Assembly (NCBI GenBank): GCA_015228935.1
Contig: JADGCO010000030.1
Location: 1-44,227, forward strand
DNA: 44,227 nucleotides
Reading direction: 5' to 3'
Origin: Magnetococcales bacterium
Lineage (GTDB): Bacteria > Pseudomonadota > Magnetococcia > Magnetococcales > DC0425bin3
Each line of letters opens with the position of its first letter. Positions within the stretch are counted from its first letter, which is position 1. A program made the position numbers and the translations under genes. Shown here one piece after another: positions 29,998 through 43,952 of the stretch. A model generated the notes under the pieces. The model was not told the DNA's origin, searched no databases, and was given only the letters and a program-made list of their open reading frames with translations.

Positions 29998-30843
29998 CTA
30001 GGTTCCGGAATCGAATCCGGTTTCCGCGAGGCCGGGTCCCCGCCGTACCGGACGCATGGCACGACACCGTCCATCCGCAACATTCACCCGTACCAGGCAG
30101 CCGCACAGGGTACCCGTTCCCTCTGCCGGCTGCAACTTGCTGGGCAAATGGGTTATGAATTTTGGCATGACCGTGTTCACACGCATGCCGATGATTGAAT
30201 CATAGCATCCGGTCATGCCAAGATCACTGATGAAACCGGTGCCACGCGGCATGATGCGCTGATCGGCGGTGGGAATATGGGTATGGGTCCCCAATACCGC
30301 CGAAACCCGACCATCGAGATGCCAAGCCATGGCAACCTTTTCGGAGGTGGCTTCGGCATGGAAATCAACGAGGAGAACATCCACATCCCGTCCCAACCGC
30401 ACCGAGGCCAGGAGTTTGTCCGCCCCCTGAAACGGACAATCCACTGCATCCATGTAGACCCGTCCCAGGAGATTGAGGATACCCACCCGCACCCCATGCG
30501 CCGTGTCGATCTGCACATAGCCCTGCCCGGGTACCCCGGGGGGATAGTTGGCCGGTCGCACGAGCCGCTTGTGAGTGGCCAGATAATCATGAATTTCCGC
30601 ATACCGCCAGATATGGTTTCCCGAGGTGATGACATCCACCCCGGATTTGAACAATTCATCGGCGATGGCGGGGGTGATGCCGATTCCGGCGGCGGCATTT
30701 TCCCCATTGGCCACCACCAGATCCGCCCCCAGCGTTTGCCGCACATGTCCCAGATGCTGCCGCAAGACAAGCCGACCCGGCTTGCCGACCACATCACCGA
30801 TCACCAGAATGGAAAGTTCCTGACTGGATTGGGTAGTCGTCAT
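29998..30843 (-). CDS. YmdB-type (TIGR00282) metallophosphoesterase
   Basis: A 281-residue calcineurin-like phosphoesterase of the YmdB family. Metal-binding motifs in order are [43 protein letters not shown] and [13 protein letters not shown]. The Bacillus homologue hydrolyses 2',3'-cyclic nucleotides, including 2',3'-cAMP, and affects mRNA and biofilm programmes. The start ATG overlaps the murE stop by 4 nt, so it is translationally coupled to murE. The C-terminal 25 residues are rich in Arg and Gly and lie outside the usual domain. Confidence 0.93.
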
Positions 30844-32597
30844 GACAGGACATCCATTCTGTGACGCAAGTGCCGCCGCGCCACCTCGGCATCATCAAAG
30901 GGCAAGACCTGACCGGCGACGATCTGGCTGGTTTCGTGACCCTTGCCGGCCAGCAAGACCGCATCCCCGGCTTTGGCCAGGGTGATCGCCCGGGCAATGG
31001 CCTGGTCGCGATCCCCGATTTCCAGACAAAGATGTTGGCCTTGATCATCCTTTCGGCTATTTGGAAAACGTCCATCTATTGGGGCTTCGCCCCAAACCCC
31101 ACCAGGACTCTGTCCTGGACCTGCCAGGGAGCCAGCCCCCTGGACCCCGTTTTTGAAAAGCCCCCGCTGATGGCCGACAAGATGATCATGGCCAAAATGT
31201 TCATGGTCAGCAACCGCCCCGGCTACCCCATCCAGAATGGCCCGCCGAATGGTGGCAGGCTGTTCACTGCGCGGATTGTCATCGGTCACGATGGTCACAT
31301 CGGCCCGTTGGGCACTGATGCGACCCATCATGGCCCGCTTGGTTTTGTCCCGTTCCCCGCCGCAACCAAACAGGACAATCAGCCGCCCCGGGGTCATCTG
31401 CCGGGCCGTCACCAACAGGCGTTCCAGGGCATCCGGTGTGTGGGCAAAATCGACCACAACCGCAAAAGGCTGTCCCTGATCAATCACCTGCATGCGACCT
31501 GGAGGGGGTATGAAACGGGCCAGCCCCTCCCGGATCACCGGCAAAGGCAGGGCCAACTGCCAGGCCGCCGCCGCCGCTGCCAGGGCATTGGCCACGTTGA
31601 AATAACCCGCAACCGGCAGATTGATTTCCAGTTCACCGGCAGGCGTGTCCATGCGAAAACGGGTTCCCTGCCAGCCGGTGGTGATGGAATCTGCCCGAAA
31701 TGGACATTCATCCTGGCCGACTTTTTCCGTGGTCAGGATGGTCCGGGTGGCAGAATCGGCAGCGAAAGTGACAAAAGGGATGCCATCCATCCGACACTGC
31801 CCCGCCACGCCAGCCCCATGCGGATCATCCCGATTGATGACGGCATGTTTTGTCTGGCCATTCTGGAACAGGCGCAATTTGGCCGCAAAATAGGCCTCTT
31901 CACTGCCATGGTAATCCAGATGGTCCCGGGTCAGGTTCAAGAACACCCCCACGTCAAAGCAGATTCCGGCAACACGCTGCTGATCCAGGGCATGTGAAGA
32001 GACTTCCATGACGCTGGCCGTACACCCGGCGGTCTGCATGTCCCAAAGCAGGGATTGCAGGGTCACGGGGTTGGGTGTGGTCATGGTGGCGGCCTGCTGC
32101 ATGCCGGGCCAACGATTGCCCGTCGTGCCCAAAACCCCGACCCGTTCACCAGCCACGGTCAGGATGGACTCCACCATGGCCGCCACCGTGGTCTTGCCAT
32201 TGGTGCCAGTGATCCCCACGGTACGCAAAGCACGGGCCGGATGCCCGAAAAAAGCGGCTGCCAACCGTGCCCATGCCTGGCGCGGTTCGGGATGCACGAG
32301 CCGACACACCCGCTCGGCCACCGCCGGTTCCGGACTCCAGGTGCCATCATCCAGGATGGCCACGGCCCCCTGCGCCAAGGCCTGATCCATAAAAAGCCGG
32401 CCATCCGTGCGACTGCCCGGCAAGGCCGCAAAAAGATCCCCCGGTCTGACCTGACGGGAGTCGGCGGTCATGCCGGACGGCACGGTATCCGGCCCGGAAC
32501 ATACCAGACCCGGACACCCCTCTCCCAACGCCCGGCACCCCAGTCCATGACCTTTTGACAACGAGTGCGTCACCGGCTTCCGACTTGTTGGACTCAT
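30840..32597 (-). CDS. murE: MurE, UDP-MurNAc-tripeptide (meso-DAP) synthetase with an in-frame insertion
   Basis: A 585-residue Mur ligase adding meso-diaminopimelate to UDP-MurNAc-L-Ala-D-Glu. ATP loop VGITGTNGKTTVAAMVES, MEVSSHALDQQRV, the DAP-selecting DNPR motif (TDDNPRSEQPATI) and LLAGKGHE are all intact. The ATG at 32597 overlaps the ftsI stop (ATGA). Compared with usual lengths of about 490-500, the excess is partly a long N-terminus and partly about 59 extra residues between ILDGVAG and EIGDRDQAI. That stretch (KNGVQGAGSLAGPGQSPGGV and around) is low-complexity and is encoded by a palindromic repeat (31032-31198). The insertion keeps the reading frame and lies in the C-terminal domain between DNPR and the KGHE loop. 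Confidence 0.95.
   Translation of the reverse strand: MSPTSRKPVTHSLSKGHGLGCRALGEGCPGLVCSGPDTVPSGMTADSRQVRPGDLFAALPGSRTDGRLFMDQALAQGAVAILDDGTWSPEPAVAERVCRLVHPEPRQAWARLAAAFFGHPARALRTVGITGTNGKTTVAAMVESILTVAGERVGVLGTTGNRWPGMQQAATMTTPNPVTLQSLLWDMQTAGCTASVMEVSSHALDQQRVAGICFDVGVFLNLTRDHLDYHGSEEAYFAAKLRLFQNGQTKHAVINRDDPHGAGVAGQCRMDGIPFVTFAADSATRTILTTEKVGQDECPFRADSITTGWQGTRFRMDTPAGELEINLPVAGYFNVANALAAAAAAWQLALPLPVIREGLARFIPPPGRMQVIDQGQPFAVVVDFAHTPDALERLLVTARQMTPGRLIVLFGCGGERDKTKRAMMGRISAQRADVTIVTDDNPRSEQPATIRRAILDGVAGAVADHEHFGHDHLVGHQRGLFKNGVQGAGSLAGPGQSPGGVWGEAPIDGRFPNSRKDDQGQHLCLEIGDRDQAIARAITLAKAGDAVLLAGKGHETSQIVAGQVLPFDDAEVARRHLRHRMDVLS
31032..31198. mobile_element. Palindromic repeat element inserted in frame in murE
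   Basis: About 167 bp bounded by 26-bp imperfect terminal inverted repeats, 31032-31057 (ATGTTGGCCTTGATCATC...) and 31173-31198 (...GATGATCATGGCCAAAAT), matching at 22 of 26 positions. The interior contains strong hairpins: GGGGC-TTC-GCCCC, CCAGGAC-TCT-GTCCTGG and CCAGGG...CCCTGG. It accounts for almost all of the roughly 59 extra residues of MurE. Similar 'GGGGCTTCGCCCCAAACCCC' intergenic repeats are common in bacterial genomes as I recall. It behaves like the in-frame Rickettsia palindromic elements; no other copy is in this window. Confidence 0.7.
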
Positions 32598-43498: not shown

Positions 43499-43906
<408 letters not shown>

Positions 43907-43952
43907 TCCCCACATCAACCCGCGCAACCCTGGCCTGGAACAGTCAAAAAAA

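Follow-up and report, generated by a model that had tools for sequence, protein, structure and literature searches.

A composite MITE in frame within the murE gene of a Magnetococcales bacterium

The murE gene and the repeat within it

The window analysed here is a stretch of 44,227 nt on contig JADGCO010000030.1 of assembly GCA_015228935.1, a Magnetococcales bacterium whose draft genome (G000) comprises 4.7 Mb in 197 contigs. It carries a murE gene with a repeat element inside it (Table 1), and an Rfam search also placed a bacterial class A RNase P RNA at 43502-43907 on the plus strand. The murE reading frame is open upstream to 32711, and the ATG at 32597, from which all codon numbers were counted, is an assumed start. 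The product scored 514.7 bits against NCBIfam NF001124 (cut-off 476) and matched the Pfam Mur_ligase domains, and the GTNGKT, DDNPR and GKGHE catalytic motifs are all intact. MurE is generally an essential enzyme of peptidoglycan synthesis, and this was the one strong MurE match in the genome, with no second strong match seen.

Table 1. Positions in the window of murE, the inserted element and its parts
Feature	Position	Strand	Basis or remark
murE CDS	30840..32597	-	NCBIfam NF001124, Pfam Mur_ligase domains, motifs
Target-site duplication, 8 bp, left copy AAGATGTT	31029..31036	.	
In-frame composite MITE of 157 bp (murE codons 469-521)	31037..31193	.	Paired TIRs, copies elsewhere, CDS coordinates
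Left terminal inverted repeat GGCCTTGATCATCCTTTCGGCTAT	31037..31060	+	TIR scan
68-bp three-hairpin core	31081..31148	+	Identical in copies C26, C182
Hairpin 1 GGGGC-TTC-GCCCC	31081..31093	+	
Hairpin 2 CCAGGAC-TCT-GTCCTGG	31102..31118	+	Both stem sides co-vary between genomes
Hairpin 3 CCAGGG-AGCCAGCC-CCCTGG	31124..31143	+	
Right terminal inverted repeat GGCCATGATCATCTTGTCGGCCAT	31170..31193	-	TIR scan; 20/24 match to left TIR
Target-site duplication, 8 bp, right copy AAAATGTT	31194..31201	.	7/8 identical to left

The limits of the element were set by aligning its copies and by a scan for its terminal inverted repeats (TIRs). Its outer ends are GGCC...GGCC, and the 24-bp TIRs read GGCCWTGATCATC.TTTCGGC. 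An earlier note on this DNA had described a 167-bp block with terminal repeats and hairpins through which the murE frame stays open; when the sequence was re-examined all of these proved to be real, and the 26-bp arms gave the same count of matches (22/26). The limits proposed there, 31032-31198, do contain the element, but they take in five bases of the 8-bp duplication on each side, the mobile unit being the 157 bp between 31037 and 31193. In the same way an insertion is indeed present where about 59 extra residues had been claimed, but the net gain is 157 + 8 = 165 bp, or 55 codons. Since 165 is divisible by three and the frame of the element is free of stops, murE has gained 55 codons and has not been broken.

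The block is no product of chance, as is seen from its copies (below) and from its folding z-scores of -4.6 as RNA and -5.7 as DNA. Such strong structure might also be expected if the insert were removed or skipped at the level of RNA or translation, by splicing or by hairpin bypass. Nonetheless, at gathering score Rfam assigned neither a ribozyme nor an intron to the murE element, and removal is unnecessary for an insert that is in frame and stop-free; the probability of such a device is next to negligible. A weak Rfam hit to Clostridiales-2 was taken as chance.

The insert in the MurE protein

MurE was compared with its counterparts in 29 relatives and in 72 diverse bacteria of many phyla. 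The spacing between TDDNPR and GKGHE is 119 residues in this MurE, 58-67 residues in the 29 relatives, all of which are without the insert, and 57-81 residues in the 72 other MurEs, among which the loop varies in length. The MurE of a member of the same genus (G002), about 64% identical, likewise has no insert. An ancestral MurE loop was thus ruled out, the insert being missing from about 100 other MurEs. In the Pfam comparison the Mur ligase C domain is interrupted by the insertion, with the match ending at residue 495 of 623.

In an AlphaFold model of MurE (64 sequences; mean pLDDT 87.6, pTM 0.88) most of the enzyme core has a pLDDT above 90, and residues 472-515, placed between a helix (447-468) and a strand (523-526), fall below 50. 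The folds closest to the model were those of MurE from M. tuberculosis (TM 0.89) and E. coli (TM 0.86), both by target. The insert is thus predicted to form a disordered surface loop of about 55 residues, with the remainder of the enzyme undisturbed. MurE would probably be made and be active with this loop disordered between the helix and the strand, and the insert may persist because it is nearly neutral at a loop that tolerates indels. The simplest reading is that a disordered loop is tolerated neutrally.

It could also be argued that the insert is an artefact of assembly or that murE is decaying, as the assembly is a draft and repeats are found at contig ends elsewhere. However, the flanks are the two halves of one MurE and are bordered by a target duplication, the frame has no stop, the motifs are intact and there is no second strong MurE match, all of which make this account extremely improbable. 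As MurE is a well understood enzyme, the effect of the loop would be measurable.

Copies, transposition and related elements

A search of the genome with the block gave 46 blast matches, and a scan with the 24-base TIR pattern found 89 sites at no more than 3 mismatches and 0 with the reversed pattern as control. Across the order the TIR was found in 21 of 41 genomes, with 233 sites in G036. The proposal that the insert is a repeat therefore held on both counts, as other copies exist and other MurEs are without it. When the right flanks were re-dealt among TIR pairs as a control, duplications matching at 7/8 or 8/8 were seen in 1.4% in the own genome and 2.5% in the relatives, as against 9 of 28 and 22 of 31 real pairs, respectively. 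Perfect 8-bp duplications border the copies at C21:12916-12976, C24:29183-29285, C26:25221-25388, C26:31642-31931 and C91:744-968, among others, and copies of 133 and 151 bp with perfect duplications are common in G036.

TIR pairs in the own genome span 61-290 bp, too short for a transposase gene. The murE element thus has TIRs, a duplication of fixed length (8 bp) and short, dispersed copies that carry no transposase, and it is a MITE; TIRs and 8-bp duplications in elements lacking their own transposase indicate transposition of this kind. We consider it about 88% probable that a composite MITE transposed into murE, duplicating 8 bp of its target and adding 55 codons in frame, with three points to be set against this account: no transposase with such ends was found in the families described below, the murE duplication is 7/8 and not 8/8, and the assembly is a draft. 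The mover would probably have been a DDE-type transposase acting in trans.

The IS1595, ISL3, IS66 and IS256 families all make duplications of about 8 bp. No transposase with GGCC-type ends was found among these four families. An IS1595 copy at C1:131893 was rejected as the mobiliser as its ends differ, ISL3 as the own genome has none and those in relatives are without the TIR, and IS256 as it is absent from both the own genome and the relatives richest in TIRs. IS66, also absent from the own genome, has GTAAC ends in relatives and was rejected for the GGCC elements. A stretch of 1630 bp running from TIR to TIR (C3:67434-69063) held no recognisable transposase, and no convincing copies were found in plasmids, phages or IMG/VR.

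The position of the copies relative to genes bears on how the murE case should be regarded. Of the ten largest open frames of the own genome that run through a copy, three gave Pfam matches, to DUF4390, thioredoxin and GNAT, and in each the element lay beside the matched domain; the other seven gave no match. Copies in relatives likewise lie outside the domains (a response regulator-kinase, an integrase, a weak hemerythrin match and an inositol monophosphatase), so that the checked copies apart from murE are either outside genes or N-terminal of the conserved domain of the frame. The GNAT frame at C95:8450-8723 (L048:2695-3423) looks like an interrupted GNAT acetyltransferase gene that is open through its copy, and GNAT-like residues were recognised by eye on either side of the copy; as it has no clear target duplication and seems to be short of part of the domain, it was read as a damaged gene. 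Among the copies checked, no clear in-frame insertion within a conserved domain was seen apart from that in murE. That a genome-wide repeat sits in frame at a predicted surface loop of murE was therefore supported, but no second clear case was found, among those checked, of a copy in frame at a surface loop in another gene. The murE insertion is thus the one clear case behind the suggestion that such repeats could give rise to new surface loops, the other checked copies lying outside genes or N-terminal to a domain.

The earlier note had likened the insert to Rickettsia palindromic elements (RPEs). Taken as an identity, this was not supported; the element is a MITE that moved with an 8-bp target duplication. 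RPEs are palindromic elements of about 150 bp found in frame in a metabolic gene and predicted to be compatible with its fold (PMC10969869), and the murE element shares each of these properties. RPEs strike many genes in frame, whereas the copies checked here gave one clear case; movement here is seen from the 8-bp target duplications. The likeness would appear to be one of outcome, in that the 55-codon insertion in murE resembles an RPE in being in frame. If the family were a selfish element in the RPE sense, specialised in coding for protein and adapted to entering genes in frame and surviving as translated peptide, this would fit the observation that the 133, 151 and 157 bp classes with the 8-bp duplication make multiples of three, and that most copies of these sizes are open in at least two of the six frames. 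Nevertheless, the placing of the other checked copies speaks against it, and many sizes (156, 168, 173, 225 and 290 bp) break the frame; we regard this reading as highly unlikely. A hand count of size classes (about 10 of 21 keeping the frame, with 7 expected) did not show a significant bias.

Transposition of a MITE also has parallels in Coxiella burnetii, in which annotated functional genes were struck by QMITE1/2 at the 3' end alone, and copies read in frame in the middle of a gene belonged to hypothetical proteins (PMC5896051; review PMC10969869). These bacterial MITEs are alike in their short non-autonomous form, TIRs and target duplications, and in being mostly intergenic and occasionally read in frame (PMC5896051; PMC10969869), but here the insertion breaks into a domain of an essential enzyme, and the element has a conserved hairpin core as its cargo. 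Outside Rickettsia there are few documented cases of a mobile element staying in frame within a folded domain of an essential enzyme; in murE the TIRs, the target duplication and the frame-keeping length show how one arose. The present analysis adds such an in-domain insertion and a hairpin core common to two unrelated shells.

In some copies the element end reads ATGATCAAGGCC (MIKA) in frame with a downstream gene, as at L282:2086-2253 (G031:C8) and L064 (C67:16311-16397), and copies beside genes may thus offer a new start codon.

Shell and hairpin core

The murE element consists of two layers. Over the central 68 bp the murE, C26 and C182 copies show no difference, while the surrounding shells of the other two differ from that of murE at 14 and 15 of 79 compared positions, or 18-19%; at an even rate the probability of such an identical core is about 1e-6. 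Given this divergence of the shell from sister copies, the fact that the murE frame is still open could be taken to mean that the loop was domesticated and, by regulating or localising MurE, is kept by selection. However, an essential gene demands an open frame in any case, and the loop is predicted to be disordered and is common to no relative, making domestication highly improbable.

The shell, with ends of the pattern GGCC[TA]TGATCATCGTTTCGGCC, is also found without the core, in a 73-bp copy (C140) with a 7/8 duplication, and a TIR pair spanning 61 bp (C21) is bordered by a perfect duplication, from which we conclude that the core is dispensable for movement. In the sister species G002 the core is 98.5% identical over 67 bp and lies in another shell, which has GTAACTATTCAGCACC ends and usually measures 147 bp; at a dozen sites this shell is bordered by a perfect 8-bp duplication. 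This IS66-type MITE shares its core and the length of its duplications with the murE element, but the terminal repeats are unrelated, and full IS66 elements with its ends are present in relatives, where GTAACTATTCAGCACC ends flank IS66-transposase genes (L199 1330-3067, L203 1344-3066). An IS66-derived origin was rejected for the murE element itself, whose ends are GGCC and not of the GTAA type; only the second shell fits. The core is thus one cargo in two transposon families. The GTAACTATTCAGCACC-ended shell with the core was seen at L294-L313 in G002, and in the own genome at L049, L050, L053, L054 and L056.

The 33 genomes in which a match to the core was found all belong to this order; the genomes sampled from elsewhere in the phylum gave none. 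With stems read per sequence, the core folds as three hairpins; RNAalifold on a MAFFT alignment of the core missed them, length changes having put the stems out of register. REP-like palindromic repeats are similar in having a GC-rich hairpin core and many, mostly intergenic, copies, but here the core sits inside TIR shells with target duplications.

The TIR shell can move without cargo, and the core of the murE copy either entered after the shell or came along with it and was then homogenised. We tentatively suggest, as a possibility that is on balance doubtful, that the core is a DNA or RNA module of Magnetococcales that spreads on its own account or is under selection, and is homogenised among copies and across species. 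It would travel as a passenger in at least two unrelated MITE families, one GGCC-ended and one IS66-ended, and by one such ride would have become part of MurE. One core in two shells makes the spread of a palindromic repeat testable, whether as cargo, by gene conversion or through usefulness.

Other contents were also seen. In G031 and G036 the GGCC shells hold palindromes of another type (ATTCCCGC..GCGGGAAT), and a 744-bp element (L222:259-1002, G031:C63) has GGCC TIRs, a perfect 8-bp duplication and tandem ATTCCCGC/GCGGGAAT palindromes inside. A class of about 270 bp (C34:21376-21648, C95:8450-8723, C18:48640-48907) has the same core and TIRs plus a module CGCCCCC...TTTTTTTGCAAACGGCGCAAAAAAA. 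Many contigs of G040 (C1, C3, C14 and others) end in a TIR-bearing repeat that lies equally far from the contig end in each, near base 99-121, which suggests that near-identical recent copies broke the assembly; repeats of the own genome are also found at contig ends.
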